From Rhodothermus bifroesti (GTDB taxonomy: Bacteria; Bacteroidota; Rhodothermia; Rhodothermales; Rhodothermaceae): 64,000 nucleotides of DNA. The stretch spans positions 62,001-126,000 of the forward strand of contig NZ_JAGKTL010000005.1 of assembly GCF_017908595.1 (NCBI RefSeq), written 5' to 3'. This document shows positions 31,015-53,944 of this stretch, piece after piece (the first letter of the stretch is position 1; each line of letters starts with the position of its first letter). The notes below the pieces were generated by a model. That model had not been told where the DNA came from and ran no database searches. It saw nothing but the letters and a program-made list of their open reading frames with translations. Position numbers and translations under genes: made by a program.

Positions 31015-31135
31015 GCGCGCGCAAATATTTATAGTTGTTTTATAGTTGTCGCGGGACCATGCGTGCGAAGAAAACTGCACTGCGGGGTTACGCTGGTATT
31101 GGTCATAGCCAAAAACCGAAAGGGGCTGGGGTGTG

Positions 31136-31333: not shown

Positions 31334-31360
31334 TTGTAATCTTGCAGTGAGGTAACCCCG

Positions 31361-34828: not shown

Positions 34829-34861
34829 TTGCAATTTCCGAAAACTCACAGGAGGTGGGCT

Positions 34862-36181: not shown

Positions 36182-37485
36182 GTCCTCCCACCATGCGTAC
36201 CCTCGAAAACAAAATCAAGCGCAGTGTCAAGGGCGTGCTCACGACCGAAGCGTTCAAGAATTGGTTTCAGGAGCAGAAGGCGCATGACGGCGACCTTGTT
36301 ATCTTGAACAATAGCTTCATTTACCGAAAGCCCGTCATTAAAACCTCTAAGAACGAGCAATACCTCTGCCTTACGGTAAAGGGCGGCCAACCAAGTACAG
36401 ACGAGCTTTCCATCGTGAAGCCAGGCGATATCGATTCAGACTTTAAGTTGTTCAGCTCAAAATCGAAGAACCTGCCTGACCGTATCCCACTTCAGGAAGC
36501 TGTACAGCAGGAGGTGCAGCGGATCGGTTCGTTGGTATTCGTCCTCATTGGCGAGTTGCAGGATGCTGATTGCGAGGTCCCTCTTAACCACAGCTTTCTC
36601 AAGTCGGTGAAGTATGACCCCGCAGCCCAACAAACGCATGTCCAAGACATCGCTGGTGGCAGTAAGGCCGTGGTAGTGAACCAGCTGACAGATCCCGGGG
36701 CAGCGTGGAAAGCTGTCGAGAAAGTCGTGCAAGGTCAAGTGGGCCACGCGCTCGATAGCTTAGAGGTTGCTTTTGCCGACGCTTTCGAGAAGTTGCGGGA
36801 GGAAGCACGTAAGCGCTTAATTCTACCTAAGCCCGGGGCGAAGAAGCGGAAGACTTCTGCAACGTTACTCTCGCGGTTTCGGGCTTCAGCTGAGCAGCAG
36901 CGCAAACTTTATAGCAAAGCGCTGAGTGAGTACTCTAAAGGTGGAAATGGAGCTGATTCATACCTTAGAGATGCCATGCGTGTTGCCTACAACTTCGCAG
37001 ATGATGCGATCAAGGTACTTGAACTGCTAGTGAGCGTCGCAGACCTAAAGGCAGTGCTCTTGTGGTGCACAATCAAAGAACATTTTGAGGTTGCCGAAGC
37101 CTTTAGGAACCTGCCATGGACAAAGAGTCGAAAGAAACCATCCCTAGAACGTTATCGAGAGATAATCAGTGGGGTACGGAACCGGGCGTTTCATAACCTA
37201 CTCGCGCTAGATCGTACAGTTGAAGCCAACCTAGAGGGTATCCAAGTAAGTGCGAAGCGGCTTACATTGTTTCCGCCATATGCGCGTCGAAAAAGCCACG
37301 TCCATTTCGAATATGAGGATCGAGAAATGGTGCAAGTTCTTTCGGAACTGACACGTGCTCCGGAGGCGACAGTGCCGTTGGAGTTCTGGAAGAAGAACAA
37401 GGTGGTCATGGAGCGCTTTGAACAGCTCCTTGAAGCAACAGAAAATGCATTGTGGATACTCAACAAAGTCAAGGGGTCTACATAA
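36178..37485 (+). CDS. HEPN-like protein in hsdS cassette, function unknown
   Basis: A 435-residue protein starting at ATG 36178, overlapping the hsdS stop; a longer open frame upstream to 35587 is only a shadow of hsdS. The N-terminal 160 residues are an unrecognised beta-rich domain. The second half is helical and holds VRNRAFHNL, with Arg334-x4-His339 matching the Rx4-6H signature of HEPN ribonucleases. HEPN proteins in restriction-modification loci commonly act in abortive infection; here that is inferred from motif and neighbourhood. No antitoxin-like partner is seen next to it. Confidence 0.65.
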   Translation: MSPPTMRTLENKIKRSVKGVLTTEAFKNWFQEQKAHDGDLVILNNSFIYRKPVIKTSKNEQYLCLTVKGGQPSTDELSIVKPGDIDSDFKLFSSKSKNLPDRIPLQEAVQQEVQRIGSLVFVLIGELQDADCEVPLNHSFLKSVKYDPAAQQTHVQDIAGGSKAVVVNQLTDPGAAWKAVEKVVQGQVGHALDSLEVAFADAFEKLREEARKRLILPKPGAKKRKTSATLLSRFRASAEQQRKLYSKALSEYSKGGNGADSYLRDAMRVAYNFADDAIKVLELLVSVADLKAVLLWCTIKEHFEVAEAFRNLPWTKSRKKPSLERYREIISGVRNRAFHNLLALDRTVEANLEGIQVSAKRLTLFPPYARRKSHVHFEYEDREMVQVLSELTRAPEATVPLEFWKKNKVVMERFEQLLEATENALWILNKVKGST

Positions 37486-37487
37486 GG

Positions 37488-37619
37488 ATGTTCTTTGAGG
37501 ATCGCTTAGCCAAATTGATGGTCGAATCTGCTGCCATCCGCAACGCGCTGCTTCCCTGGCTGATCTCCAGCGAGCTGCGGGTCAAGGATCCTGAAGGATT
37601 CCTAAAAGAATGGGGGTGA
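37488..37619 (+). pseudogene. hsdS tail mini-ORF 1 (43 codons)
   Basis: An open frame from ATG 37488 whose last part reads AIRNALLPWLISSELRVKDP and on to EGFLKEWG. It is clearly related to the HsdS C-terminus (ALLPKLISGELRVKDAEKF). It starts 2 bp after the HEPN-like gene and stops 4 bp before the next gene, so it may provide translational coupling. It is either debris of a replaced hsdS 3' end or a retained coupling peptide. Confidence 0.75.
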
Positions 37620-37623
37620 ACAG

Positions 37624-38454
37624 ATGAGTAGCTTAACGGATAGCGAAAAGCGATACTTCGAAGCAATTCTAGGCATGAAGAATGGATACGTGCTCAACTA
37701 CACGGATGCTACGTTTGCCGAATTGTTCAGACGCTACAATATCGATATTCACAGTCAAAAATACCAAACATACGGAACATCAAAAGCCAAGAAGATGCGA
37801 GCCTTTTGGGATCAGGAACCTGATTCCGTTGTTGGACCTGTCTTGAAGGAAGTGCTCGACGCTTATGTCCTGCAGTGTGAACTCAGTGGCAGAAAGCCGA
37901 ATGAAGCTATCCTTAAAAAATGTCAAGCGATTGTTTCTAGATTGTCAGGAGGTAAAGCCTCGCCTACATCTGCCGAAACGGGCGATGCGTTCCTACGCCA
38001 GGAATTCGTCATCTCGAACCTGAGCAAACTTCCAGTTGAAGGGCCGGTTACAGACATCATTGCGGCCAGGCTGGACGAGGCAGCTAAAGCTCTTAAAGCA
38101 GGCGCTTATTTTGCTGTTATTGTTCTATGCGGGAGTATCCTCGAAGGCGTGCTTCTTGCGGTAGCTCAACGACATCAGGAGAAATTTAACCGCTCACCAA
38201 TCAGTCCCAAGACAGCCGAAGGCAAGGTCAAGTCCTTCCATGAATGGAGTCTTGCACAATTGATCGACGTGGCCCACGACGTTGGATTGCTTAAGTTGGA
38301 CGTCAAAAAGTTCAGCCACGGTTTGCGAGACTTTCGGAATTTCATCCACCCATACCAACAAATGCGGTCACAATTCACGCCAGATCAGCATACGGCCAAG
38401 GTTTGCTTTCAGGTGTTGAAGGCGGCTCTGGCGGACCTGGCGGGGGAGCGGTAA
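37624..38454 (+). CDS. HEPN/AbiJ-like protein in hsdS cassette
   Basis: A 276-residue protein. The N-terminal 90 residues (GYVLNYTDATFAELFRRYNI, GTSKAKKMRAFW, VVGPVLKEVLDAY) resemble the small N-terminal domain seen fused to abortive-infection (AbiJ-type) and other effector proteins. The C-terminal domain is helical and carries GLRDFRNFIHPYQQ, with Arg235-x6-His242 fitting the HEPN Rx4-6H signature. It is flanked on both sides by hsdS-tail mini-ORFs. A growth-arrest ribonuclease role is inference. Confidence 0.65.
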   Translation: MSSLTDSEKRYFEAILGMKNGYVLNYTDATFAELFRRYNIDIHSQKYQTYGTSKAKKMRAFWDQEPDSVVGPVLKEVLDAYVLQCELSGRKPNEAILKKCQAIVSRLSGGKASPTSAETGDAFLRQEFVISNLSKLPVEGPVTDIIAARLDEAAKALKAGAYFAVIVLCGSILEGVLLAVAQRHQEKFNRSPISPKTAEGKVKSFHEWSLAQLIDVAHDVGLLKLDVKKFSHGLRDFRNFIHPYQQMRSQFTPDQHTAKVCFQVLKAALADLAGER

Positions 38455-38455
38455 G

Positions 38456-38596
38456 ATGAACGGGGGTCCCATTGCCCTGAAACTACTCACCTTGACGCAC
38501 CACCGAGCTCTGAGCGACAACCTGTGTTGCAAACCCATCTCCAGCGAGTTGCGGGTCAAGGATGCTAAACGGTTTTTGAAGGAGCGGAGGCCATGA
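38456..38596 (+). pseudogene. hsdS tail mini-ORF 2 (46 codons)
   Basis: An open frame from ATG 38456, 1 bp after the previous stop. Its last 20 residues, [20 protein letters not shown], match the HsdS C-terminus, while the first 26 residues do not. The stop overlaps the start of the transposase gene as ATGA, just as the true hsdS overlaps its follower. This is the third copy of the hsdS tail in 2.5 kb. Confidence 0.75.
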
Positions 38597-39153
38597 AATA
38601 CGACCCTAAAAAGCATCACCGCCGCAGCATTCGGCTGAAGGGGTATGATTATTCCCGGCCCGGCGCGTATTTCATCACCCTCGTGACCCAGGATCGGGCG
38701 TGCCTATTTGGCGAGGTGGTGGATGGGGAAATGCGGTTGAATGCATGGGGGAAAATTGCGCGGCAATGTTGGTTTGACATCCCGGTGCATTTCCCACATG
38801 CCGCATTAGATGCATTTGTGGTGATGCCCAACCATATCCATGGGGTTATTATCATTGTCGATGGTAGGGGCACGGCATGCCGTGCCCCTACCCTGGAACA
38901 ATTTGGGAAACCCGTGGCCGGTTCCATCCCAACCATTATCCGTTCGTATAAATCCGCCGTTGCCAAACGCATCAACGAACATCGCGGCACACCCGGCGCC
39001 CCCGTCTGGCAACGCAATTATTTCGAACACATCATCCGCAACAGTGATGAATTACACCGCATTCGGGAATACATCACCAACAACCCGTTACAATGGGCCT
39101 TGGATCGGGAAAACCTGGATGTTGTAAGGGCAACGCACGCGTCGCCTCTATAA
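38593..39153 (+). CDS. REP-associated tyrosine transposase (RAYT)
   Basis: A 186-residue Y1/HUH-type transposase. [20 protein letters not shown] is a standard RAYT N-terminus, and MPNHIHGVI carries the metal-binding His-x-His pair (about residues 78-84). FKTM-type helices are replaced by [30 protein letters not shown] is the C-terminal block with candidate catalytic tyrosines. A 30-bp REP palindrome is embedded in frame in its linker. It overlaps mini-ORF 2 and sits between hsdS cassettes and hsdR. RAYTs mobilise or maintain REP sequences and are often domesticated. Confidence 0.9.
38863..38892. repeat. 30-bp perfect REP-like palindrome inside the RAYT gene
   Basis: The two halves GGTAGGGGCACGGCA and TGCCGTGCCCCTACC form a perfect palindrome within coding sequence, read as [10 protein letters not shown]. 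It has the GTAGGGGC head typical of REP elements handled by RAYTs. Confidence 0.85.
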
Positions 39154-39164
39154 AAGAACGAACC

Positions 39165-42100
39165 ATGGTGCACCTGACCGAATCTCATGTCGAGGAAGCC
39201 GCCCTCTCCTGGCTGGAATCTATCGGTTGGGGGACCGCCTACGGGCCGGACGTGGCGCCAGGGACGCTCATGGCCGAGCGCGCTGATTACGGCGAGGTAG
39301 TCCTGGCCCAGCGGCTGCGCGACGCCCTGGCTCGCCTTAACCCCAACTTACCCGCCGAAGCGCTGGAGGATGCCTTCCGCAAGCTCACGCGGCCCGAAGG
39401 GGCGGATCTCCTTCAACGCAACCGCGCGCTGCACCGCATGCTCGTGAATGGCGTGAACGTGGAGTATCGGGCGGCGGACGGCGTCATCCGTGGCGCGCAG
39501 GTGTGGGGGATCGATTTCGACGATCCCAATAACAACGATTGGCTCGCCATCAACCAGTTCACCGTCTCCGAGCAGCGGTCCACCCGCCGGCCGGACATCG
39601 TGCTTTTCGTCAATGGCCTGCCGCTGGCGGTCATTGAGCTGAAGAACGTGGCGGACGAAAAGGCGACCATCTGGACCGCTTACCAACAGTTGCAGACTTA
39701 CCAGGCTGAGATCCCCTCCCTGTTTGCTTTCAACGAGGTGCTGGTGATCTCGGATGGTACCGAGGCGCGCGTCGGTGTACTCGGTGCTGGAGGTGAATGG
39801 TTCAAGCCCTGGCGCACGATCACGGGCGAAACGCTGGCTCCGGAGACGATGACACAGTTGCAAGTGGCAATCGAGGGGCTATTTGAAAAACGCCGCTTCC
39901 TCGACCTGGTGCGTGACTTCATCGTCTTCGAGGACGATGGCAGCGGGCGGCTCGTCAAGAAGATGGCAGGCTACCACCAGTTCCACGCCGTGCAGGTGGC
40001 TGTGGCGGAAACGCTGCGCGCGGCAAAACTCACTCGCGCGGAACAAGTAGCCGAGCGGGGTCCGGGCTACGAGGCAGGACGCAAACCCGGCGGTGCGCCC
40101 GGCGACCGCCGCATAGGCGTGGTCTGGCATACGCAGGGCTCTGGCAAGAGCCTGACGATGGTCTTCTACGCCGGCCGCATCATCCGTGAGCCGGCGATGA
40201 GGAATCCGACGATCGTTGTCCTCACCGATCGCAACGATCTCGACGACCAGCTGTTCGGCACCTTCTCCCGATGCCAGGACCTTCTGCGCCAGCCGCCCGT
40301 GCAGGCGGAAAGCCGCGCGCATCTGCGGGAGCTCCTCTCCGTGCAAGCGGGTGGTGTGGTATTTACCACGATTCAGAAGTTCCTGCCTGAAGAAAAAAGT
40401 GATCGGTACCCCACGCTTTCGGAACGCCACAACATCGTCGTCATCGCCGACGAAGCGCACCGCAGCCAGTACGACTTCATTGACGGCTTCGCCCGTCACA
40501 TGCGCGACGCCCTGCCCAATGCTTCCTTTATCGCCTTTACCGGAACCCCCATCGAGCTGGCCGACCGCAACACGCGTGCCGTTTTTGGCGATTACATCAG
40601 CATTTACGACATCCAGCGAGCGGTTGAGGACGGCGCCACCGTGCCCATTTACTATGAGAGCCGGCTGGCCAAGCTCGACCTTCCCGAAGAGTTAAAGCCG
40701 AAGATCGAGGAAGAATTCGAGGAAGTCACGGAAGGTGAGGAGGTCGAGCGCAAAGAGAAACTCAAGAGCAAGTGGTCGCAGCTGGAGGCCATCGTCGGTG
40801 CTGAGAAGCGCCTCAGGCTGATCGCTCAGGACATCGTCGAGCATTTCGAAAAGCGGCTGGAGGTGCTGGAAGGCAAAGCGATGATCGTGTGCATGAGCCG
40901 GCGCATCTGCGTTGAGCTGTACAATGAGATCGTCAAGCTGAGGCCGGAGTGGCACCACGAAGATGACGATAAAGGCGTCATTAAAGTCGTGATGACCGGG
41001 TCAGCGTCGGACCCCCCAGATTGGCAGCCGCATATCCGAAACAAGGAGAGACGGGAGTTCCTGGCCCGGCGTTTCCGGGACCCCAACGATCCTTTCAAGG
41101 TGGTCATCGTCCGGGACATGTGGCTGACCGGCTTTGATGCCCCGAGCCTGCACACGATGTACCTGGACAAGCCGATGCGCGGCCATGGCCTCATGCAGGC
41201 TATCGCGCGGGTCAACCGCGTGTTTCGTGACAAACCCGGCGGGCTGGTGGTGGACTACCTGGGGCTGGCCCATGAACTCAAGGCGGCGCTGGCGACCTAT
41301 ACGGAAAGTGGGGGTACTGGTCAGGCGGCTATCTCCCAGGAGGAGGCCGTTGCGGTCATGCGCGAGAAGTACGAAATCTGCTGCGATCTCTTCCACGGTT
41401 TCGACTGGTCGGTGTGGAAGACGGGACCCCCCCAGGAAAAGCTGTCGCTCCTGCCTGCTGCGCAGGAGCATATTCTGTTGCAGGAAAACGGCAAGGATCG
41501 GTTGCTACGAGCGGTGCAAGAGTTGTCCAAAGCTTTTGCGTTGGCAGTCCCACACGAGGAAGCGCTGCGTATCCGGGACGATGTAGCCTTCTTTCAGGCG
41601 GTACGGGCGAGCCTGGTCAAGCGGGCACCGGGCGAGTCGAAAACAGAGGAAGAGCTCGACCATGCTATTCGCCAGATCATCTCTCGCGCCGTTGCTCCCG
41701 AGGGCGTCGTGGACATTTTCGCAGCCGCGGGATTGAAAAAGCCCGATATCTCCATCCTGTCCGACGAGTTCCTGGCAGAGGTGCGGGGCATGCCGCAGAA
41801 GCACCTCGCGGTGGAGTTGCTGCAGAAGCTCCTCAAAGGAGAGATCAGCACCTGGCGTCGCAAGAACGTCGTTCAAGCCAGGTCGTTTGCGGAAATGCTG
41901 GAACGGGCGATCCGCCGCTACCAGAACCGGGCCATCGAGGCGGCGCAGGTGATTGAAGAGCTCATTCAGCTGGCCAAGCAGATGCGAGAGGCCGACCGAC
42001 GCGGTGAGGGGCTTGGCCTCACAGAGGAAGAACTCGCTTTCTACGACGCGTTGGCAACCAACGACAGTGCGGTGAAGGTGCTAGGCGATGAGACGTTGCG

Positions 42101-42317
42101 CACCATCGCCCGCGAGCTGGTCAGAACCGTCCGCGCGAATGTAAGCATCGACTGGACCCTGCGCGAGAACGTGCGCGCCAACTTGCGCGTGCTGGTGAAG
42201 CGCATCCTGCGCAAGCACGGATACCCGCCGGACAAACAGGAAAAGGCGACGCAGGTCGTTCTGGAGCAGGCTGAAGTGCTATCGGCCACATGGGCTATAG
42301 CGCCAACAGGTGTTTAG
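39165..42317 (+). CDS. hsdR: Type I restriction endonuclease subunit R
   Basis: ATP-driven translocase and nuclease of the complex. The 1,050-residue protein starts at ATG 39165; a longer frame to 39093 lies inside the RAYT gene. The nuclease site is PD-(D/E)xK-like: Asp144 (RRPDIVLF), Glu158 and Lys160 (VIELKN). Helicase motifs follow: Walker A HTQGSGKS (322-329), DEAH (429-432) and a motif III-like FTGTP. The C-terminal 200 residues are the helical HsdS/HsdM contact region. It is separated from hsdM and hsdS by the cassette genes and has a partial tail copy at 43170. Confidence 0.95.
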
Positions 42318-42370
42318 ACTACCAGAACTTCCAGCCCAGCAAGAAAAAGCAAGATGCATAACCCCTTAAG

Positions 42371-42484
42371 ATAGACGACATCGCCTTTGACGCGTTGGGT
42401 CTAACGCCCAGCGAGCGTGAGGCGGTGTATGAGGCGGTGGTCAATTTGGTACGGGCGCGGTTGGAGAAAGCACGGGGTATGTAG
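42371..42484 (+). pseudogene. C-terminal remnant of a DNA methyltransferase/restriction enzyme
   Basis: The open stretch reads IDDIAFDALGLTPSEREAVY and on to VVNLVRARLEKARGM, then stop. It resembles the extreme C-terminus of Eco57I-like or other fused N6-adenine methylase proteins (FDxLGLTxxEREEVY). Nothing upstream continues the gene. It is a leftover of another restriction system. Confidence 0.55.
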
Positions 42485-42762
42485 CCATGAAATACGACCC
42501 TAAAAAGCATCACCGCCGCAGCATTCGGCTGAAGGGGTATGATTATTCCCGGCCCGGCACGTATTTCATCACCCTTGTGACCCAGGATCGGGCATGCCTA
42601 TTTGGCGAGGTGGTGGATGGGGAGATGCGGTTGAACGAGGCGGGACGGATGATGGAAAAATGGTGGGCCAAATGGCATCACAAATTCCCAAACGTGCAAA
42701 CCAACGCATTCGTCATCATGCCCAACCATTTCCATGGGATTATCGTGATAACGTCCAATCCC

Positions 42763-42789
42763 GTAGGGGCAGACCCGCGTGTCTGCCCC
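42763..42789. repeat. REP-like inverted repeat in RAYT 2
   Basis: GGGGCAGAC (42766-42774) and GTCTGCCCC (42781-42789) flank a 6-base loop and follow a GTA head. A related GGTGCGCCCCTACC half-element lies near 42914-42927. Confidence 0.75.
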
Positions 42790-42810
42790 GATGAAACGGG
42801 TGCACATGCG

Positions 42811-42864
42811 GGAATGGGCGCACACACGGGAATGGGCGCACACACGGGAATGGGCGCACACACT
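42811..42864 (+). repeat. 18-bp tandem repeat, three copies, in RAYT 2
   Basis: GGAATGGGCGCACACACG repeats three times (last base differs in the third copy). Eighteen bases keep the frame and encode GMGAHT. The repeat is part of the expanded linker before the frameshift. Confidence 0.9.
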
Positions 42865-43169
42865 ACGCGTCTGCCCTGATCATATGGGCGCACACACGGG
42901 TGCGCCCCCAACAGGTGCGCCCCTACCGGAAATCGTTCAATGGTTCAAAACGATGACCACCAATGAATATATCCGCGGCGTCAAACAATCCGGATGGCCG
43001 CCATTCCGCGGTCGGTTGTGGCAACGCAATTATTATGAACACATCATCCGCGACGATGCCTTCTTGAACCGCATTCGTCAATACATCGCTGAGAATCCCT
43101 TGCGCTGGCATCTGGACCGGGAAAATCCTCACCGAACTGGAACAGACGGCGATCATATACTAGGCTGAC

Positions 43170-43312
43170 CGTTGCATCGATGGGATATTTCGCGAGAACG
43201 TGCGCGCCAACTTGCGCGTGCTGGTGAAGCGCATCCTACGCAAGCACGAATACCCGCCGGACAAGGAAGGCGTCTCCGACAGTACTGGAGCAGGCTGAAG
43301 CGCTCTGACAAG
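43170..43312 (+). pseudogene. Duplicated fragment of the hsdR 3' end
   Basis: From about 43170 the sequence aligns with hsdR 42139-42285. The segment GAGAACGTGCGCGCCAACTT and the following 65 bases are nearly identical, and the copy then decays with small indels and loses the frame. It lies just after RAYT 2, so RAYT 2 and the methylase remnant are bracketed by two hsdR tails. The remaining 43313-43473 shows no recognisable gene. Confidence 0.8.
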
Positions 43313-43473
43313 CTGTTCCTGCTAGCTGGCAGCTTAGGGTTACGACATCACGGGGAAATGTACGAATACTTCAGCGCAGACCTGAGGTTTTTTCAGGTTT
43401 GGCAATAGTGGTGCGTTGCCCAATGAACTTACAGGCGAATCGGCGCGGCCCGCGAAGAAATCACAAGCACGTC

Positions 43474-44928
43474 TTACGACGCCCGCGAAGCGCCATGCCG
43501 ACGGCCATAGGTGAAGTAAATAAGGAGGCCAAGCGCCATCCAAAGCAGCAGCCGAAGCCAAGTGTCCCACGGCAGGGAAAGCATTTGGAGTAGGCTAATG
43601 CCCGCTCCCAAGATAGGGACCCAAGGGAACAGTGGCGTTTTAAAGGGCCGAGGGATGTCGGGACGGGTGTAGCGCAAGACAATCACGCCAAGGCATACAA
43701 TGGTAAAGGCCAGTAGCGTTCCAATGGAGACAAGTTCTCCCAAAATCCCAATAGGAAACAGCCCCGCAAAGATCGCTGCGATAATGCCTGTGACTATAGT
43801 GGTGATATGCGGGGTGCGAAAGCGCGCATGAACAGCAGCAAAGTATTTGGGCAAAAGGCCATCTCGGGCCATGGAGTAAAAGATCCGGGGTTGACCTAAA
43901 AGCATAACTAGGATCACAGAGCTCAATCCAGCAATAGCTCCAATCTTGATCAAAGGTCGAAGCCAGAATAACTCAGGACCAACGGCATCCACCGCTACGG
44001 CTATAGGATCGGGTACGTTCAGCATCTTATAGCTTACAATACCTGTAAGCACCAGCGCCACAACCACGTAGAGCAGCGTTGAAATGCCTAGCGATCCTAA
44101 AATGCCTATGGGCATGTCTCGCTGAGGATTTCGAGCTTCTTGGGCTGCGGTTGAGACAGCGTCAAAGCCGATATAGGCAAAGAAAATCACCCCAGCCCCC
44201 CGTAAAATGCCACTCCAACCATAAATGCCAAACTTTCCTTCGTTGGGGGGGATAAAAGGCTCCCAGTTGTCCGGGTTGATAAAGAAGATACCGGCACCAA
44301 TAAACAAAAGCAGAACAAAAATCTTGACCATCACAACGAGATTGTTCATCGTTGCCGACTCCCGGATACCGATAACCAGGAGCGTGGTCATGAGAGCGAT
44401 AATGAATACGGCCGGCAGGTTGAGGATCGCTCCTGTGGTAGCCCAAGTGTGGGTTTTAGGGTCAAAAGTAAAAGGCGATTGGGTCCACTCGGAAGGTAGA
44501 ACAATTCCAAAATCCTTAAGAAAGCTGACCACGTACCCCGACCATCCAACAGCGACGGTTGATGCCCCAAATAAATACTCCAGGATCAGATCCCAGCCGA
44601 TAATCCAAGCAAAAAACTGACCTAGCGTCGCATAGGCATAAGTGTAGGCACTTCCAGCTACGGGAATCATCGAGGCCATCTCGGCATAGCAAAGACCAGC
44701 CAAAGCACAGCCAATCCCCGACAGAATAAAAGACAAGACAATAGCCGGTCCGGCATACTGTGCGGCTGCTTGCCCGGTGAGCACAAAAATGCCTGCCCCA
44801 ATGATGGCCCCAATGCCTAGGCTGACCAAATTCCAGGGACCCAAAACGCGCCGAAGACCCTGACCACGGTCTTCGGCCTGCTCAATAAGCTCAGGAATCG
44901 ATTTCTTAATGAACAACCTGCTTGCCAT
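43474..44928 (-). CDS. APC-family amino acid permease
   Basis: A 484-residue inner-membrane transporter with about 12 hydrophobic segments. The N-terminal VSLGIGAIIGAGIFVLTGQAA and the SFILSGIGCALAGLCYAEMASMIPVAGSAYTYAYATLG stretch are typical of the cationic amino acid transporter-like branch of the APC superfamily. GVIFFAYIGFDAVSTAAQEARNP is the conserved helix 6 region. Substrate is not readable. It is transcribed towards the island and is divergent from the cas operon. Confidence 0.9.
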   Translation of the reverse strand: MASRLFIKKSIPELIEQAEDRGQGLRRVLGPWNLVSLGIGAIIGAGIFVLTGQAAAQYAGPAIVLSFILSGIGCALAGLCYAEMASMIPVAGSAYTYAYATLGQFFAWIIGWDLILEYLFGASTVAVGWSGYVVSFLKDFGIVLPSEWTQSPFTFDPKTHTWATTGAILNLPAVFIIALMTTLLVIGIRESATMNNLVVMVKIFVLLLFIGAGIFFINPDNWEPFIPPNEGKFGIYGWSGILRGAGVIFFAYIGFDAVSTAAQEARNPQRDMPIGILGSLGISTLLYVVVALVLTGIVSYKMLNVPDPIAVAVDAVGPELFWLRPLIKIGAIAGLSSVILVMLLGQPRIFYSMARDGLLPKYFAAVHARFRTPHITTIVTGIIAAIFAGLFPIGILGELVSIGTLLAFTIVCLGVIVLRYTRPDIPRPFKTPLFPWVPILGAGISLLQMLSLPWDTWLRLLLWMALGLLIYFTYGRRHGASRAS

Positions 44929-45250
44929 ACTTATAAAGTAAAAAGGCTGGGGTGTTTTTAGAGAAAGCGTAATAACTTAGAATAAGCAGGATTAATAAAC
45001 CAATAAAAATAAGGCCTTGTCCAAAAGAGAAGAATTAAAATATACCCCATATTCAAGCGGGATTGCCAATCCAAGAAGCAAGCAGCCGATTGCAGATATA
45101 TTGGCTCTAAACACAACTCTGCCTAAATGCATCCGCTCTAAAAGCGCTGGATGGCAGCTTTGCCAAAGCCAGAGGGTGTTTGCACTATTCATTGCCAGGT
45201 AAGGTACCTATGTAGGGGTGCTTTTGTCGTAGACAGCTGTAGCGACGCGT
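44929..45250. other. AT-rich intergenic stretch between permease and cas8
   Basis: No gene with family similarity, no repeat-spacer array and no tRNA seen. The region is AT-richer than its neighbours and should hold the permease promoter (reading left) and part of the cas leader. Short open frames here look random. Confidence 0.5.
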
Positions 45251-45300
45251 ATTTGTTACGCTTATTGAGTTAAAATTTTTGAGCAGAAGAGGTAACAAAT
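45251..45300 (+). promoter_or_regulatory. Candidate cas operon promoter framed by an inverted repeat
   Basis: ATTTGTTAC (45251-45259) and GTAACAAAT (45292-45300) are 9-bp inverted arms 32 bp apart. The left arm contains TTTG, followed after 18 bp by AATTTTTG (45274-45281), close to a TTTG / TAnnTTTG promoter. The right arm would fall at the transcription start, 39 bp before cas8. This layout suits repressor binding. Confidence 0.5.
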
Positions 45301-45338
45301 CTGTTGTGAGGGTTTCTTTTTGAAAAAACTAAGACCGT

Positions 45339-46781
45339 ATGTCTTTGGGCTTACGCTGGACGGGGCATGCGCTTATTGATATGGGCGTTGCTGCGGTAGT
45401 GCTGGCTACTGGCAATAAAGATCCGAAGGAAGTTACGCAGGCGCAGTGGGCTCAGTGGATGGATGAGCTAGAACAAGATTATAAGAATGAACATTTAAAG
45501 AAGCCTTGTTCTATTCTTTTTACGTTGAACGCTTTTGATAACCCTTCTTGGCAAAAAAATCCTGCAGAGCGGACGCGCAAGATTGAGGAGACGTTTGCCT
45601 ATGCACGGGGTAAGAAGTCAAGTTTAGCATTTGGAGAGCCCTGTACTTTTTTCCCAGAGCGTCTGGCGGTAGTTCGAGCAGCACGGGATCTGTTTCCGTT
45701 ACTTCAGGGGCAGCGGCAGCTTAATTTTTATCCAACAGGTCGCCCCGAACTTCCCCTTTCAGATTTGGCTTTAGGGTGCGTGCTTTCCTTGCCGCGCGTG
45801 GCGCCTGTTGTGAGTGGCCGTTTGATGATTGTAGGCTCCGAGCGCCTAGAACTTGTGCTGGATTTATGCGATATCTGGAAAGATGAGCTTGACCGAGAGC
45901 TTGCCCTTTTACGGGCTGGCAAGGACTGGCGCGACCGTAAGGCCCCGCGTACCCGTTTGCTTGAAGCACTTGTTGAAGTTTTTCGCATGCCTAAGCGCTA
46001 CCATTTCTCTCTAGGTGGGCAGGAGGCTAGTCTTACGCTCTATCATCTGTCAAACAGCGGAAACGCCCCAGGCATCGACCTATATACGGTACCCCCTGTT
46101 GTGCACCGTTTTCTCGCTCGTGCTGGATCGGCCGCCTACCAAGCGCATTGGAAAGCGCTTGTGCAGGCTTTTTGGTTTAGGAAGGATAAAAAGGATAAGC
46201 AGGAGCAGCCCTTTGAGGAGGCGGATCGTCTACAGGCTTTTAATGAAGTTTATGAGCGCTTGTCAGAGCTGCCCCTAGAGGTTGATGGCTTTATCCGGCG
46301 CATTTTCTTGCGCTATGTCCTAAGTCGCGTTGGTGTACGTCGAAAGTTGCACACCACAGACATTGATCAGTGGCCACTAGTCGAGCTCTTTTTAAAGGAA
46401 ATCATAGGAGATGTTATGCACACCGATCGCATTCAAATGATTCGGCGCCTGGCAGATGAGTTAGCTAGGGAAATCCACGAGCAAAACGACCGTCGGCTTT
46501 ATCGACAGCTGATGGGATTGGCTTCAGGGACAGATGCCTATCGCGCTTTTCGAGCGCTACTGCTGCGCGCGCTGCGCGAGCGACTGCGTCGAGAAAACCA
46601 GCTTTTGTTTACGCTGGAGGACTATCTCCTTTTGTTTGAAGAAGCCGAAGGCTTTCCAAGCAGCGACTGGCGTCTTGTGCGCGATCTCATCCGGATTCGG
46701 GTGCTCGAAGAACTCTATCATCGAGGCTTTTTCCAGCAAGCCCCAGAGCTTTTAGAGGAAGAAATAAACATCGAAGAATAG
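45339..46781 (+). CDS. cas8b: Type I-B Cascade large subunit Cas8 (Cst1/Csx13-like)
   Basis: Putative large subunit that recognises the PAM and recruits Cas3. The 480-residue protein begins MSLGLRWTGHALIDMGVAAV, as in Cst1/Cas8a1-type proteins. Large subunits diverge fast, so the call rests on this N-terminus, size and position as first gene before cas7-cas5-cas3. I do not see the CXXC pairs that give the Cst1 family its other name; only isolated cysteines occur. A charged C-terminal helical region (RALRERLRRENQLLFTLEDYLLLFEEAEGF) could serve as the small-subunit part. Confidence 0.75.
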   Translation: MSLGLRWTGHALIDMGVAAVVLATGNKDPKEVTQAQWAQWMDELEQDYKNEHLKKPCSILFTLNAFDNPSWQKNPAERTRKIEETFAYARGKKSSLAFGEPCTFFPERLAVVRAARDLFPLLQGQRQLNFYPTGRPELPLSDLALGCVLSLPRVAPVVSGRLMIVGSERLELVLDLCDIWKDELDRELALLRAGKDWRDRKAPRTRLLEALVEVFRMPKRYHFSLGGQEASLTLYHLSNSGNAPGIDLYTVPPVVHRFLARAGSAAYQAHWKALVQAFWFRKDKKDKQEQPFEEADRLQAFNEVYERLSELPLEVDGFIRRIFLRYVLSRVGVRRKLHTTDIDQWPLVELFLKEIIGDVMHTDRIQMIRRLADELAREIHEQNDRRLYRQLMGLASGTDAYRAFRALLLRALRERLRRENQLLFTLEDYLLLFEEAEGFPSSDWRLVRDLIRIRVLEELYHRGFFQQAPELLEEEINIEE

Positions 46782-46806: not shown

Positions 46807-47874
46807 ATGGCATTTATTAGTGGAATTCAGGTGCTGCATGCACCAGCTTCGGCGCTTAATAATGCGGGTACGCAACCAGGCCAAGCAGCAGAGAACGCTG
46901 TTATCGTAAAGGCTTTGCGTATAGGTGGGCGTGCCTATCCTTACGTTTCTGCTCAGGCCTATCGATACTGGGTCCGACGTACGCTTGAGACACTGCAGCC
47001 AGAAGGGTGGACGGTAGCGCCGATTTTTCGTGAAGCCAAAGTGGCCTATACGGATGCTAACCCAATCGAATATGCCGATGACGATGTCTTTGGCTACATG
47101 CGTGCCCCCGGAAAAAGTTCTAAAGCAGACGCTAGCCGGCAAGCTTTTGCTGAAAGCACCGAGACAAAAGAAGCGGTCACGCGCGTAGCGCCTTTTCGGG
47201 TTGGGACTTTAGTCGGGTTGAGTGATGGAGTAGTGCAGGATTTTGGCGTGATGAGTCGTCACGAAGGTGATCCAGTACCTTATGAACATCAGTTTTATCG
47301 AACATCACTCAAGGGCATGTTCTCTATAGATTTAGGCCGAATAGGGGTTTTTACTTACGAAAATCGTACGGGCTTTTTGAACCTGGATGAAGAGCGTCGC
47401 CGCTTGGCTGAAGCGCGTGGCCTAATCCACGATGCTGATGCAAAGACCTATCGGTTGGCGTTAACCGAACGACTGAAACGCGTGCAGGCTTTGCTTAAAG
47501 CTTTGCCTTTAGTAGAGGGTGGGGCGAAACAAGCATTACATTACACAGACACCAATCCGGTCGTTGTGGTGATGGCTGTGCTTCGTGGAGGGAATAATCC
47601 TTTCTACTACACCATTGATGGCGACCGGGAGGGGTTAGCCCGTCCAGTCCCAGGGGCTTTTCAGGAGGTGGCTAAGGTATGGGCCGACCAAATCTTGTCG
47701 CCGCTCTACATTGGATGGGTTGAGGGGTATGCTGCTGAAGGGCGTCGGCAGCTTGAAGAAGCACGGGCTACGTTTCAGCAGAGCTATCCTCATGGGGTGA
47801 TTGTTGGACACCCGCGAGAGGTGTTTCGACAGCTTGCTCAAGACCTTTCCCAACATCCAGAATGGCTGGAATAA
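46807..47874 (+). CDS. cas7: Type I-B Cascade backbone Cas7 (Cst2/DevR)
   Basis: Forms the helical filament along the guide RNA. The 355-residue protein starts FISGIQVLHAPASALNNAG and has RIGGRAYPYVSAQAYRYWVRRTL, the recognisable DevR/Cst2 N-terminal blocks of the RRM-type Cas7 fold. HQFYRTSLKGMFSIDL further on is also characteristic. It follows cas8 by 25 bp, and its TAA overlaps the cas5 ATG (TAATG). Confidence 0.9.
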   Translation: MAFISGIQVLHAPASALNNAGTQPGQAAENAVIVKALRIGGRAYPYVSAQAYRYWVRRTLETLQPEGWTVAPIFREAKVAYTDANPIEYADDDVFGYMRAPGKSSKADASRQAFAESTETKEAVTRVAPFRVGTLVGLSDGVVQDFGVMSRHEGDPVPYEHQFYRTSLKGMFSIDLGRIGVFTYENRTGFLNLDEERRRLAEARGLIHDADAKTYRLALTERLKRVQALLKALPLVEGGAKQALHYTDTNPVVVVMAVLRGGNNPFYYTIDGDREGLARPVPGAFQEVAKVWADQILSPLYIGWVEGYAAEGRRQLEEARATFQQSYPHGVIVGHPREVFRQLAQDLSQHPEWLE

Positions 47875-48584
47875 TGGCTGATCGTTTGGAAGCAGTACGT
47901 GTAGAGCTGGAAGGGCCGGTTGCCTCGTTTCGGTACCCACATTTTCTTATCGGCCGGCAGCCAAGCTATCCTATGCCACCGCCTTCGACAATCTATGGAC
48001 TAGTAAGTGCAGCGCTAGGATATTTCCCAGACCCGAAACACCTTGCTTTCGCCTACCGCTTTTACTGTGAGCGCGCACGTGTGGACGACCTGGAGACGAT
48101 CTGGTTCGTTGAGCCCAATACAGCTACGCGGGGGGCAGCATCTCAAAAAAACTTAGAAGCGACAAGCAATGTGCTACCGCGTGAGTGGCTCGTGAGCATT
48201 CGCATGACGCTTTTCTTGGCAGGCAATGAGCTGGACGTGCTTGAAAAGGCTTTTCGCAGCCCGCATTACTTGCTCACGCTGGGTCGTTCCCAAGAGCTGG
48301 TCAGTATCCGACGTGTCGAGCGCGTTGTGCTTCATCCAGCACAGTCCGGACGCTTAGAGCCCGGTCTACTGCCGCTCAGTTTACGGGCACAGCTCCCAAT
48401 GGCAATCGCTGTCTACATGCCGCGCTTTATTCCACCACGACATCGATGGCCTGTGCTTTGGGATTGGTTCCTCGTGCTGGATGTTCCGTTCCCTGTGCAA
48501 GCCACAAACGAAGTTTCATTCTGGACCGAAGACGTTGAGGCGGCAGAGCCCCGAATTTTGACTTTTCATCAGTTTAGGCTGTAG
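47874..48584 (+). CDS. cas5: Type I-B Cascade subunit Cas5
   Basis: Caps the 5' handle of the guide RNA in Cascade. From ATG 47874 the protein is 236 residues. It opens LEAVRVELEGPVASFRYPHF, then SYPMPPPSTIYGLVSAALGY, the conserved Cas5 segment with the glycine-rich turn. An in-frame ATG at 47862 lies within cas7 and is less likely; TAATG coupling favours 47874. The stop is 7 bp before the likely cas3 ATG. Confidence 0.9.
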   Translation: MADRLEAVRVELEGPVASFRYPHFLIGRQPSYPMPPPSTIYGLVSAALGYFPDPKHLAFAYRFYCERARVDDLETIWFVEPNTATRGAASQKNLEATSNVLPREWLVSIRMTLFLAGNELDVLEKAFRSPHYLLTLGRSQELVSIRRVERVVLHPAQSGRLEPGLLPLSLRAQLPMAIAVYMPRFIPPRHRWPVLWDWFLVLDVPFPVQATNEVSFWTEDVEAAEPRILTFHQFRL

Positions 48585-48585: not shown

Positions 48586-50961
48586 GTGGCTATGAACGCC
48601 GAATCCCTTAAGGCCAAGAGTATCCGTGAGGGAGGCGAGTCATTACCTCAGCATACGCGCCAAGTGATTCGGCGGCTAGGTGAACTTAGGCATCGCATGC
48701 CCGATTTAGAGCAAAAAATTGAACTTCCTGGCTTGTGGAAGGCGCTTTTTGCTGCGGCTTGGATTCATGACTTTGGTAAAGCTGCACGCGGTTTTCAGGC
48801 AATGCTTAACGGTGGCCCAAAATGGAGTTATCGGCACGAAGTGCTTTCTTTAGCTTTTCTACCTTGGGTTTTAAAGCCAGATGATCCTGACTATCCACTT
48901 GCAGCAGCAGCTGTAGCAGCGCATCACCGGGATTATGAGGTACTGGCCCGACAGTATATTGAAGTGTTGCATCCCGAAGATGCCGGAATTGAAGCGCGGT
49001 GGGAAGAAATTGATGAAGAACGACTCAAAGCGCTGGCAGTATGGACAACGCAAGAGTGGCCTCAAACGATCACATCGGAAGGCCTAGATTTGCCACTGCC
49101 CTCAAAATTCGATTTGCTGGCCGACATACCCCGGTTGATTCAAGAAGGTCCAGACCGTATCCGTCAAGGACTGCGGGCTTATCAAGAGTATTATTGTAAA
49201 CAATGGTGCCCCTCAGGCTTAGGACGACGGGCAGACCCTGTGCGTTGCCGCCAAGCCCTTTTTGTGCGTGGTCTTTTGCTGCAGGCCGATCGGCTAGCCA
49301 GCGCGCAGGCGCCTCCTCTGAGAACACCTGTACTGGATGGCTTGCAGCGCGCCATGCCCCAGAACCCCAAGGACTGGTACCCACATCAGCATCAAGCTGC
49401 AAAAACGCGAGGCTCATTGCTGTTGGCTGCGCCCACCGGAAGTGGTAAAACCGAAGCCGCACTTCTGTGGGCACATAGGCAGCTTCAAGAAGGACGTCGG
49501 GGGGTTGTATTTTATCTGCTGCCCTACCAAGCTAGCCTTAATGCAATGTATCAGCGCTTTGTGCAGCGATATGGATTGTGCCGCAACGATGTGGGACTTG
49601 TGCACAGTCGAGCTGTGCAGGCAATCTATCGAGAACTGGCACAGGAAAAATATGAGGCCAGAAAGGCCTATCAGAAAGCTATCTTCCGGAAAAACCTGGG
49701 GCGACTTCATCAGCAACCGGTACTTTTGGCCACCCCTTATCAACTCTTGCGTGCGGCTTTTCGGCTGCCTGGTTATGAAGGTCAGTGGGCCATGCTCCAT
49801 GGGGCGCACTTGGTAGTCGATGAGGTGCATGGCTATGAACCGATACGCCTAGGTTTGTTACTTGGTCTTTTTGAGACGTTGCGTCAAAGGTTTGAGGTAC
49901 GCTTAGCTGTAATGACCGCTACAATGCCTTCATGGCTGCGTACGTTGTTGGAAAAGGTACTTGAAGTACCACTTCTGCAGGCCGACGCTGCGCTTTACCA
50001 TAGGTTCTGCCGCCATCGACTTTTTATCCGGGACGGTCGGCTTAATGATGAAGCCATACTTGCAGAAATCGCGCGACGCGTACGCGCTGGCGAGGCCGTG
50101 CTTGTGGTTACTAACTTGGTTGCTGCTGCGCAAGAAATCGCTGTTCGGCTGGCTGAACAGCTCCGGTTTCACTGGAAAGAGACTTGTGATCCAGAGCACG
50201 ACCCTGTACTGCTGGTGCATAGCCGCTACACTGCCGAAGATCGGCTTCGACGGGAGAGGGCTTTACTGCAGCGTCTAGAAAAGCCGCGTCGAGAGGGCTT
50301 TGTCGTCGTGGCTACCCAGGTCGTCGAGGTTAGCCTGGATGTTGACTTCGATACGCTCTACACGGAACCTGCACCGCTTGAAGCTTTGGTGCAACGCTTC
50401 GGCCGCGTTAACCGCCGACGTCGCGAGCCGGAACGCCCAGTCTTTGTCACGGCTGAGCCTATTGATTGGAAATGGCCCTATCATCAAGAAACGCTCATGC
50501 GGCGCACCGTCGAGCACCTAACCGCATACCATGAAACCTTAATCGATGAAGCTAAGCTGACAAGCTGGCTAGACGAAGTGTATGCGCCCGAAATAAACCG
50601 CCTGTTGCAGGAAGTCAACCGAGGCCGCAGCTCCTTCAATGACGTAGCTGGACCGGAGCGTCTTGTGGCTTTCAAGTCAGATCCAAGCTTAGAGGATGAG
50701 TTCGACGCGCTTTTTGATGGCTATGAAGTGCTGCCCCGTCCACTTCAAGCAGCATTCCTGCAGCGCATCGAAGCTGGAGCCTTAGTTGAGGCCTACAGTC
50801 TTCTGGTCCCTGTGTCACGTGGACGTTTCCACGCTTGGCGTGAGCGCTCCGCACTCACGCGCTTGGAAGAACACCAGGTTTGGGTAGCCCATGCAGCTTA
50901 TGATTCGTGCTGGGGATTAAGACCTGAAGCAGAGGAGGCTGCAGAAGTCTATATGCTCTAG
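48586..50961 (+). CDS. cas3: CRISPR nuclease-helicase Cas3
   Basis: Degrades target DNA after recruitment by Cascade. The 791-residue protein starts at GTG 48586 or ATG 48592. An HD nuclease domain (about 1-245) shows His23, His61-Asp62 (WIHDFGK), His113-His114 and the closing Asp in LLQADRLAS (about 234). The SF2 helicase has Walker A APTGSGKT (282-289), DEVH (412-415), TATMP (444-448) and QRFGRVNRRR (603-612). All metal and ATP residues look intact, so it should be active. It is the usual I-B order after cas5. Confidence 0.94.
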   Translation: MAMNAESLKAKSIREGGESLPQHTRQVIRRLGELRHRMPDLEQKIELPGLWKALFAAAWIHDFGKAARGFQAMLNGGPKWSYRHEVLSLAFLPWVLKPDDPDYPLAAAAVAAHHRDYEVLARQYIEVLHPEDAGIEARWEEIDEERLKALAVWTTQEWPQTITSEGLDLPLPSKFDLLADIPRLIQEGPDRIRQGLRAYQEYYCKQWCPSGLGRRADPVRCRQALFVRGLLLQADRLASAQAPPLRTPVLDGLQRAMPQNPKDWYPHQHQAAKTRGSLLLAAPTGSGKTEAALLWAHRQLQEGRRGVVFYLLPYQASLNAMYQRFVQRYGLCRNDVGLVHSRAVQAIYRELAQEKYEARKAYQKAIFRKNLGRLHQQPVLLATPYQLLRAAFRLPGYEGQWAMLHGAHLVVDEVHGYEPIRLGLLLGLFETLRQRFEVRLAVMTATMPSWLRTLLEKVLEVPLLQADAALYHRFCRHRLFIRDGRLNDEAILAEIARRVRAGEAVLVVTNLVAAAQEIAVRLAEQLRFHWKETCDPEHDPVLLVHSRYTAEDRLRRERALLQRLEKPRREGFVVVATQVVEVSLDVDFDTLYTEPAPLEALVQRFGRVNRRRREPERPVFVTAEPIDWKWPYHQETLMRRTVEHLTAYHETLIDEAKLTSWLDEVYAPEINRLLQEVNRGRSSFNDVAGPERLVAFKSDPSLEDEFDALFDGYEVLPRPLQAAFLQRIEAGALVEAYSLLVPVSRGRFHAWRERSALTRLEEHQVWVAHAAYDSCWGLRPEAEEAAEVYML

Positions 50962-50997: not shown

Positions 50998-51555
50998 ATG
51001 CTTAGCACCGAAATGCATAAGCTTTGCGTCACCGGTACCCTAGTAAACTACTATGTGCTTTGTCGGCGCAGAGTGTGGCTTGCGGTGCATGGGCTTTGGA
51101 TGGAGCATGAGTCAGAACTTGTGGCTTTGGGTCGGCTGCTTGACGAGACTAGTTATACCGACGAACTGCGCCATGTGAACGTAGAGGCAGAGGGGCCTGA
51201 AGGACTTCGTTTAGCAGGGCGCATTGACTGGGCTGAGCTGCGCGATGGTGTGCTGCACGAAACCAAACATAGCCCTAGGGCCCTGGAAGCCCACCGCTGG
51301 CAGCTCCGGTTTTATCTATGGCTACTCAAACTGCTTGGCGTGACTCGAACCGACGGCCAGCCATTTAGAGGTCAGCTGAACTTTCCCCGTCAGCGGCGCA
51401 CCGAAAACATCATACTTGAACCAGAACACGAGACTCGTTTAAACGAAATCGTACAAGCAATTTACCAGACAGCCACCCAAGCCCTACCGCCGCCCCGTCT
51501 TGTCAACCGTCGCTTTTGCAAAAAATGTGCATACGAAGAGTTATGTTTTGGATGA
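50998..51555 (+). CDS. cas4: CRISPR adaptation exonuclease Cas4
   Basis: Iron-sulfur RecB-like nuclease that trims and orients prespacers. The 185-residue protein has Cys22 and a C-terminal Cys174-x2-Cys177-x5-Cys183 set for the 4Fe-4S cluster. The nuclease core has Asp77 (GRIDWAE), Glu88-x-Lys90 (HETKHS) and Gln102 (RWQLRFYLWLL). An alternative start at 51013 would drop five residues. It is followed by a separate exonuclease gene before cas1. Confidence 0.93.
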   Translation: MLSTEMHKLCVTGTLVNYYVLCRRRVWLAVHGLWMEHESELVALGRLLDETSYTDELRHVNVEAEGPEGLRLAGRIDWAELRDGVLHETKHSPRALEAHRWQLRFYLWLLKLLGVTRTDGQPFRGQLNFPRQRRTENIILEPEHETRLNEIVQAIYQTATQALPPPRLVNRRFCKKCAYEELCFG

Positions 51556-51630: not shown

Positions 51631-52314
51631 ATGCACTACATTGCTTTAGATATAGAGACATGTCCGCTGCCTCTAGAGGGTTATTCAGCACAGCAGCAAG
51701 CCCGCCTAGCGCGGGAAATGCAATTTAGACGACAGCGCGAACCTGATATGCCTGAAGATATGCTCGCCCACTGGGCAGCCAGCTTGCACCCCCTTTTGAG
51801 CCGTATCGTCTGCATTTCTGTGCAGCGTGCTGAAAATGATCCTTTACAGCCTAACCCACCCCACTCCTACCTGGCTACGGAGCCCGCCGAGGAGCGGCGC
51901 ATACTGCAGCAATTTTGGCAGGATCTGCAGCGCGTTGTGGAACGCGGCGAAAAAATCTGCTGGGTCACGTTCAACGGTAAACGATTCGATGTTCCCTTTT
52001 TACTGGCACGCACGTTACACCACGGCCTAAAACCCATCACTTGCGGCTTACTCGACGATTATCCCTATCGACAATATCCCCACTGCGATCTGTTCAATTT
52101 GTTTTCCGGGATCAACTGGGGATTAGAAGACTTGTGCGCGCTCTTGCACATTCCTAACCCTAAGGCGCATGGCGATGGTAGCCTGATAGCGCAAATCTTA
52201 GAAACGGAAGGGGTCGATGGGGTTCGGCGTTACTGCGAAGCCGATGTCAAGGCAACGCTGGCCTGCTTCGCGAAGCTGCTTCCACTGCTCCCCCCCGAAT
52301 GTCAACCCCACTGA
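51631..52314 (+). CDS. PolB-type 3'-5' exonuclease embedded in CRISPR adaptation genes
   Basis: A 227-residue DEDDy exonuclease starting at ATG 51631; a TTG at 51619 is a weaker option. Exo I is Asp7-x-Glu9 (LDIET), Exo II is in TFNGKRFDVPFLL (Asn115, Asp120), and Exo III is Tyr201-x3-Asp205 (YCEAD). It resembles the free-standing exonucleases related to the proofreading domain of DNA polymerase B. It lies between cas4 and cas1, 6 bp before cas1, so it is very likely co-translated with the adaptation machinery. DnaQ-type exonucleases are known to trim prespacers in other systems; a similar role here is inference. Confidence 0.85.
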   Translation: MHYIALDIETCPLPLEGYSAQQQARLAREMQFRRQREPDMPEDMLAHWAASLHPLLSRIVCISVQRAENDPLQPNPPHSYLATEPAEERRILQQFWQDLQRVVERGEKICWVTFNGKRFDVPFLLARTLHHGLKPITCGLLDDYPYRQYPHCDLFNLFSGINWGLEDLCALLHIPNPKAHGDGSLIAQILETEGVDGVRRYCEADVKATLACFAKLLPLLPPECQPH

Positions 52315-52320: not shown

Positions 52321-53403
52321 ATGAAACGGCCGTATTATTTGTTTTCTAATGGGCGGCTACGCCGACGACAAAATACGCTCTTTTTCGAAAAAACCGCAGG
52401 CGAACGCGTTCCAGACGACCAAGATGAAAGCGGCGCCTCTTCGGGGACGCCTACGGGCGAGCGCATCCCTTTTCCTGTAGAACAGGTGGAAAGCCTCTAT
52501 TTTTTTGGAGAGGTGGACTTAAATTCAAAGCTATTGACGTTTCTAGCACGACACGACATCCCCGCGCATTTCTATGATTACTACGGTAACTATACGGGAA
52601 CCTATATCCCACGCGATTTTCTGCATAGTGGACGACTGCGCATCGAACAAGTATTGCATTACGTGCGGCCTAAAAGGCGCATCTACCTTGCTCGGGCGTT
52701 TGTCGAAGCTGCTACGTACAACTTGCTGCGCGTGCTGCGTTACTACCTGAACCGACTCGAAGGTGAGCGGCAGCAGCACGTCGCACAGGCTATAGAAATT
52801 GTGAAGGCAGAACGTGCAGGACTCCGCGAAACCCAAGAAGTCGCCCAACTTATGGGCATCGAAGGGCGCTGCCGCGATGCCTACTATCAAGCTTGGCCCG
52901 CAATCTTGCAGGATGGACCTGGAGAAGCTTTTACCTTCACGCGACGCGAGCGGCGGCCGCCTACCAATGAACTCAACGCACTAATCAGCTTCGGCAACAG
53001 TTTATGCTATACCACGACCATCCGTCAGATTCATCGCACAGCACTCGACCCGACGATTTCATATTTGCATGAACCTGGATTCCGACGGTTTTCGCTGGCT
53101 TTGGATTTATCGGAGATTTTTAAGCCGCTTCTGGTAGACCGAACAATTTTCCGACTGGTTAAAACTGGACAGATTACGCGAAAACATTTTGAGCCGCATC
53201 TGGGAGGAATATACATGAATGAGGAAGGACGCAAGATTTTTGTGCAGCAATGGGATGAACGCCTGCGACAAACGGTGTACCACCGCCAGCTCGAACGACA
53301 TGTAAGCTATGAGCGCTTAATCCGTCTGGAATGCTACAAGCTTATCCGACACCTGCTCGATCCTAAGCAAGAGCCTTATCGCGGATGGCATATGTGGTGG
53401 TAA
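52321..53403 (+). CDS. cas1: CRISPR integrase Cas1 (type I-B)
   Basis: Integrates new spacers with Cas2. The 360-residue protein opens YYLFSNGRLRRRQNTLFFE. Residues about 27-50 are a hydrophilic insert (polar, DDQDESGASSGT) between strands of the N-terminal domain. Catalytic metal ligands are Glu181 (GIEGRCRDAYY), His250 (YLHEPG) and Glu265 (LDLSEIFKP). All are present, so it should be active. It is followed by a hairpin and the convergent cas2. Confidence 0.95.
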   Translation: MKRPYYLFSNGRLRRRQNTLFFEKTAGERVPDDQDESGASSGTPTGERIPFPVEQVESLYFFGEVDLNSKLLTFLARHDIPAHFYDYYGNYTGTYIPRDFLHSGRLRIEQVLHYVRPKRRIYLARAFVEAATYNLLRVLRYYLNRLEGERQQHVAQAIEIVKAERAGLRETQEVAQLMGIEGRCRDAYYQAWPAILQDGPGEAFTFTRRERRPPTNELNALISFGNSLCYTTTIRQIHRTALDPTISYLHEPGFRRFSLALDLSEIFKPLLVDRTIFRLVKTGQITRKHFEPHLGGIYMNEEGRKIFVQQWDERLRQTVYHRQLERHVSYERLIRLECYKLIRHLLDPKQEPYRGWHMWW

Positions 53404-53503: not shown

Positions 53504-53770
53504 TTAAAGCAGCCGATTGAGGTGGCCTTGCTCTGTACCTAGGACAACGCGTTGGCTATAGCGGGCGTCACGGAGTTCGTAAAAAATGACCACGTCTTCA
53601 TCAGGGTTGATAAGCTTTTGCACCTCGTATCGAAGACGATGGAATTGGGCCTCAGTAAGCTCCCCTTCAAAAACAGAGCGCTGAACCCAGGTCAAATAGC
53701 GCCGAAAGAGTTTCAGCACTTTGGCCACCCGGCGAACATTGGCATCGTAAACAGCAATGTAATACGGCAT
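53504..53770 (-). CDS. cas2: CRISPR adaptation protein Cas2
   Basis: Dimer scaffold for Cas1 in spacer integration. The 88-residue protein has the ferredoxin-like start YYIAVYDANVRRVAKVLKLFRRYL, with the conserved Asp8, then WVQRSVFEGELTEAQF and the VVIFYELRD strand. It is complete but lies on the minus strand, convergent to cas1, which is unusual because cas1 and cas2 normally run together. It therefore needs its own promoter, from the spacer 53771-53944. Confidence 0.9.
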   Translation of the reverse strand: MPYYIAVYDANVRRVAKVLKLFRRYLTWVQRSVFEGELTEAQFHRLRYEVQKLINPDEDVVIFYELRDARYSQRVVLGTEQGHLNRLL

Positions 53771-53944
53771 AGCAATCAGGCTTCTTCAAGAGCTGTTTTA
53801 ATCGCACTTGCTAGAGCTTTAAAAAGCACACGTGCTGCAATCAAAAAATTTTTGCACCAACAAGGCCACTTCTCCTATCCCTGAAGCGTTCACAAAAATA
53901 AAGCCGATAAACGATTCCCGATAAATCCAAAACCATGGGTTGTG

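Follow-up and report, generated by a model that had tools for sequence, protein, structure and literature searches.

A PolB-type exonuclease gene coupled to cas1 in Rhodothermus CRISPR loci, and its possible role in the adaptation unit

The type I-B locus and its exonuclease gene

The window, a stretch of 64,000 nucleotides from Rhodothermus bifroesti, encompasses a CRISPR-Cas cluster that is type I-B by its Cas1 and Cas7, both of which score above cut-off. On the forward strand, cas8 (45339–46781; Cas8b1/Cst1-like, at 17.1 bits just under the curated cut-off of 19.4, and syntenic with a 68% identical homologue in G030, a genome of a different family) is followed by cas7 (46807–47874; Cst2/DevR, type I-B, above the curated cut-off), cas5 (47862–48584; Cas5t-like, at 92.1 bits just under the cut-off of 96.7), the HD-helicase gene cas3 (48586–50961, from a profile search), cas4 (50998–51555; PF01930 at E=3e-40, with TIGR00372 above cut-off), the exonuclease gene, and cas1 (52321–53403; type I-B, TIGR03641, 405.8 bits against a cut-off of 304.1). 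Convergent with cas1 on the reverse strand lies cas2 (53504–53770), placed by profile search and locus comparison. All cas reading frames in the window are open. The cas6 gene (about 29709–30398, forward strand, 68% identical to cas6 of G030) sits 15 kb upstream of cas8 and not beside it, split off by an insert of ~15 kb (30446–45339). This insert, in which type I restriction-modification genes (hsdM- and hsdR-like) lie together with a pair of REP-type transposase genes and a permease gene, starts at a probable N-terminal stub of Cmr1 (LMLETVTPLFLAGAD; 30495–30539, forward strand; E=0.01, 87% over 15 amino acids). Near-identical tandem 18-bp units (GGGAATGGGCGCACACAC) occur at 42795–42863 within a transposase-like reading frame.

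The gene between cas4 and cas1 (51631–52314, forward strand) was identified by Pfam profile, alignment, AlphaFold2 and Foldseek as that of a DEDDy (PolB-type) 3′-5′ exonuclease. Its product is 227 residues long from the ATG start, or 231 from an in-frame TTG at 51619, and its stop codon (52312–52314) is separated from the cas1 ATG at 52321 by 6 bp. The protein matches Pfam PF10108 (DNA_pol_B_exo2) with E=1.8e-15 and 57.7 bits (cut-off 24); Pfam describes this family as predicted 3′-5′ exonucleases akin to the PolB exonuclease domain. The catalytic residues D7 and E9 (in LDIET), D120 (in FNGKRFD), and Y201 and D205 (in YCEAD) are invariant across relatives in an alignment of 21 sequences. The AlphaFold2 model (pLDDT 92.7, pTM 0.90) finds its top Foldseek matches in the PDB among family B and Pol epsilon DNA polymerases (E ~1e-5 to 1e-6); a close homologue with a solved structure was sought and rejected, as the Pol epsilon matches are weak. 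Judged by sequence and model, the gene encodes an intact exonuclease of the PolB proofreading fold, with predicted 3′-5′ activity on DNA. Together with the Cas4 and Cas1 profiles, these data bear out the original prediction of a PolB-like DEDDy exonuclease between cas4 and cas1, with its three motifs intact and 6 bp from the latter gene. Purifying selection acts on the Rhodothermus exonucleases: dN/dS is 0.05–0.17 in pairwise comparisons with unsaturated dS.

Coupling to cas1 and the exchangeable type III module

Seven Rhodothermus genomes were compared, five of which carry the exonuclease, and in all five the chromosomal gene lies directly 5′ of cas1 with cas2 convergent beyond it, a placement of cas2 that recurs in G030. 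The exonuclease stop and the cas1 start overlap as ATGA in four (L003/G297, G050, and the R. marinus genomes G003 and G008, the latter being strain DSM 4252 according to its plasmid record). Rhodothermus G058 is without both the exonuclease and the linked type of cas1, and G296 is without the exonuclease. The five-of-five adjacency rules out a chance insertion confined to the window genome. Coupling of the exonuclease to cas1 is conserved in the genus and, as far as gene arrangement can indicate, fits a role in adaptation.

The other four Rhodothermus loci differ from the window in that cas4 and the exonuclease lie 7–9 kb apart, with a complete type III module in the space. In L003 the insert consists of cmr1-6 and a gene for a CARF-HEPN-Csx3 protein, and G050 has the identical order; G003 combines cmr1-6 with another CARF protein, and G008 carries a III-A set resembling cas10-csm2-5 (assigned from a weak match to Cas10 together with the order and sizes of the genes) with a CARF protein. 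The cas4-exonuclease junction (L003, L054, L055, L057; 51555–51631 in the window) is a site of module exchange among close relatives, where the states are III-B with Csx1-Crn3, III-B with a different CARF protein, III-A, and nothing. Comparison of G003 with G008 gives a view of one such exchange. From a point ~215 nt into cas1 to the end of cas2 their DNA is identical; identity is ~91% in the exonuclease and the first part of cas1, and the upstream modules are wholly different. Since the exonuclease has this older divergence in common with the initial ~215 nt of cas1, the module exchange probably carried the exonuclease along.

The window locus itself has lost the type III module, the leader and the array. 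The 76-bp gap between cas4 and the exonuclease holds no remnants of type III genes, and no match to Cas10 was found in the window genome. The match to the start of Cmr1 behind cas6 (15 residues, E=0.01) suggests that a III-B module was probably present in the window earlier. Beyond cas2, where relatives carry both leader and array, the window has neither, only an isolated repeat-like remnant (53795–53808, forward strand) that matches the start of the genus CRISPR repeat at 13 of 14 positions. A search of the rest of the window genome for clusters of the genus repeat, allowing up to 2 mismatches, found none, and neither did a direct scan of ~0.3 Mb. An assembly gap elsewhere in this genome could possibly account for a missing array, though the locus is contiguous here. 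With array and leader gone, the step proposed below for the exonuclease may be disused in the window genome.

The locus copy in G030 has naturally lost most of the exonuclease. Because the cas4 genes of G030 and G003 are 97% identical (dS 0.10), the locus was probably acquired horizontally. A deletion scar (L053:9827–9925; G030:C1 about 2681826–2681924) fuses the cas4 stop to about codon 194 of the exonuclease, which is reduced to 32 residues, and the type III module is absent. The array has 58 spacers, and none common to G030 and its close relatives was found when such spacers were sought to date the loss.

The usual type III insertion after cas4 does not show in the window sequence and provides a strong competitor to an adaptation role, namely that the enzyme is an ancillary nuclease of Cmr/Csm effectors engaged in crRNA 3′ trimming, target degradation or, in the manner of the CorA-linked DEDD phosphodiesterases, removal of signalling nucleotides. 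The exonuclease directly follows a type III module and CARF gene in four of the five intact loci, where it also terminates the type III operon, which counts against adaptation; in G030 the module and most of the exonuclease are missing jointly, as from one deletion; and in the R. marinus pair the two were probably exchanged together. There is precedent as well, since type III crRNAs are matured by 3′-5′ exonucleases (PMC9762709) and DEDD phosphodiesterases have been published in type III-B loci (PMC10600005). The latter resemble the present enzyme in being DEDD nucleases in or near a Cmr locus; however, they are RNase T/oligoribonuclease-like and occur with CorA (PMC10600005), whereas the predicted fold of the Rhodothermus enzyme is that of a PolB DNA proofreading domain and no CorA is found among its neighbours. 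L003, moreover, encodes its own Csx3/Crn3 ring-nuclease domain. A single orthologue serves both III-A and III-B loci, the exonuclease is intact in the window genome despite the missing Cas10 match, and the stop/start overlap is with cas1. On balance we regard a dedicated type III function as unlikely, though it is the main rival and a live one. What supports the adaptation role is that the exonuclease stays by cas1 whether its other neighbour is III-B with Csx1-Crn3, III-B with another CARF protein, III-A or none, and that the window genome retains it alongside intact cas4, cas1 and cas2.

Relatives outside Rhodothermus

The PF10108-type exonuclease family is common in the phylum (296 genomes), and its members in Bacteroidota are predicted exonucleases that have family, fold and catalytic residues in common with the window enzyme at 25–33% identity. 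Unlike the CRISPR clade, the family in general lies away from cas1 in every sampled genome: among the matches listed for the 296 phylum genomes, compared by eye, the only exonuclease-cas1 adjacency outside Rhodothermus is the stub in G030. A survey of 245 genomes of the class returned 17 matches at E below 1e-14 in 15 genomes; five are beside cas1, all in Rhodothermus, one is on the plasmid pRMAR01, and the rest are in unrelated contexts. No cas1 was seen near the non-Rhodothermus exonuclease loci in flanks of up to 10 kb. A widespread association of PF10108 with cas1 is thus rejected for the samples searched in the two surveys. The original prediction had proposed conserved adjacency as a check, and the outcome is divided, with the gene beside cas1 in every exonuclease-bearing Rhodothermus genome and intact homologues outside the genus never in that position in the samples searched.

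In the tree, the CRISPR exonucleases and the pRMAR01 copy form one clade (support 100/98), which is adjoined by thiL-linked copies of family f12 (96/93); a thiL-like gene neighbours an exonuclease relative in two genomes. Class relatives are otherwise scattered over plasmids, the surroundings of recombinase, restriction or ParA-like reading frames, and viral contigs, and the plasmid relatives are named 'ribonuclease H-like domain-containing protein' by NCBI. The copy on pRMAR01 (L096:10711–13891) is a second exonuclease gene that adjoins a TnpB gene, and a small array of a different repeat lies between it and a RecQ/DpdF-like helicase gene. In genomes of family f6, homologues whose reading frame is broken by a stop or a frame shift (L216:1501–2148 and L222:1262–1827) are decaying copies outside CRISPR loci. 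A phage origin was considered and rejected. Relatives from phages and viral contigs are mostly 20–32% identical over the domain, with one at 39%, which leaves no close donor among them.

Given how mobile the family is, the gene may be a passenger, a mobile nuclease gene that entered an ancestral locus at the cas4-cas1 junction, has no CRISPR role, and would persist through its operon with cas1 and its use as a recombination arm for module exchange. The scatter of class relatives across plasmids, viral contigs and TnpB, thiL-like, recombinase, restriction and ParA-like neighbourhoods is what such a history would leave, and 13 related loci with no gene or only a stub have arrays without visible defect. 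Against it, the active site is intact, dN/dS is low over a large synonymous divergence, and the position and the cas1 stop/start overlap are constant while the neighbouring module repeatedly changes. We consider it improbable, though a live alternative, that the gene is a bystander. Members of the same order, Rhodothermales, with Cas1 proteins 60–63% identical carry cas4 and cas1 without the exonuclease, and because these close relatives manage without it, the exonuclease is at most optional.

Spacer length and a possible function in adaptation

The original prediction assigned the enzyme the setting of the 3′ end on the non-PAM side of the prespacer. An exonuclease that sets this end is expected to give more uniform spacers in loci carrying the gene. 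The repeat period has a standard deviation of 0.54–1.06 (pooled 0.90, n=664) in 12 I-B loci with related Cas1 and without the exonuclease, and of 0.40–1.12 (pooled 1.16, n=131) in four loci with it, so that no tightening of spacer length is seen in exonuclease-bearing arrays relative to the 12 loci. The modal period in G030 is 66, the mode of its relatives, and its spread is slightly wider than theirs, a difference that is not significant (Levene's test, p=0.07). Since loci without the gene are equally or more uniform, the exonuclease is not needed as a ruler of spacer length. Exonuclease-bearing arrays are few, and arrays from one lineage do not count as independent; the comparison accordingly argues against length-setting and not against trimming. 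Of the proposed role, then, the placement in adaptation agrees with the cas1 coupling, while the setting of spacer length is not supported.

The earlier argument that a second nuclease beside Cas4 would be surplus is weakened by published work on Cas4, which processes the PAM end, so that a different nuclease is needed at the non-PAM end; proposals for that step name host exonucleases or Cas1 itself (PMC10504553). A PolB-type exonuclease co-translated with cas1 would fit this vacancy. The closest known parallels are the DnaQ-like DEDDh exonucleases of adaptation, comprising a Cas2-DEDDh fusion that acts as trimmer and integrase and the host enzymes DnaQ and ExoT, which are likewise RNase H-fold 3′-5′ exonucleases linked to Cas1-Cas2. 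They trim prespacer 3′ ends up to the footprint protected by Cas1-Cas2 (PMC10284694); trimming by the window enzyme is putative. Unlike them, the window enzyme is of the DEDDy PolB type and is encoded by a separate gene in a locus with Cas4; the DnaQ-like DEDDh active site is absent, its place taken by a DEDDy site with Y201 and a PolB fold. Despite this difference, the exonuclease could possibly still work as the DEDDh trimmers do. A further likeness is to the adaptation-linked 'RNaseH' associations UAS-3 and UAS-45 in the large FLSHclust survey, whose main text places RNaseH-type genes by adaptation modules but gives no detail (PMC10910872); going by that description, the Rhodothermus gene may already be listed there. 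Our literature search found no work tying PF10108 specifically to CRISPR, and only a general survey of the RNase H superfamily.

We tentatively propose that the exonuclease is a recruited, optional DNA 3′-end trimmer of the adaptation unit, acting most plausibly at the non-PAM prespacer end; this is a reasonable possibility and short of a settled conclusion. A stand-alone family B-type proofreading exonuclease, without a polymerase, would have been recruited into a type I-B locus, probably once, in or near Rhodothermus, from a mobile or chromosomal family of the Rhodothermia, and would there serve the cas1 adaptation unit as an optional accessory, co-translated with cas1. Its substrate would be the single-stranded 3′ DNA overhangs on captured prespacers, which it would remove mainly at the non-PAM end, and trimming would halt at the footprint protected by Cas1-Cas2, with Cas4 holding and cutting the PAM end. 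Cas1-Cas2 would thus be the length ruler, and the exonuclease would add speed or efficiency rather than length. Besides the type III operons and the module exchange, what counts against this proposal is that spacer length shows no effect, that close Cas1 relatives do without the gene, that cas1 adjacency is not found elsewhere in the genomes surveyed, and that the window locus is without array and leader. A more general activity, in which the enzyme processes DNA ends at Cas3 or type III cuts, feeding adaptation or repairing self-damage, and does not act on a prespacer held by Cas1-Cas2, would also accord with the PolB-type proofreading fold and with the operon shared with cas3, cas4 and cas1. 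Nothing specific favours it, and the exonuclease adjoins cas1 and not cas3; we consider it very unlikely.

If the trimmer proposal is correct, Rhodothermus would provide what is presumably a thermostable enzyme for this step. Loci with and without the gene, the latter in G030 and other Rhodothermales, would then constitute a natural plus/minus pair.
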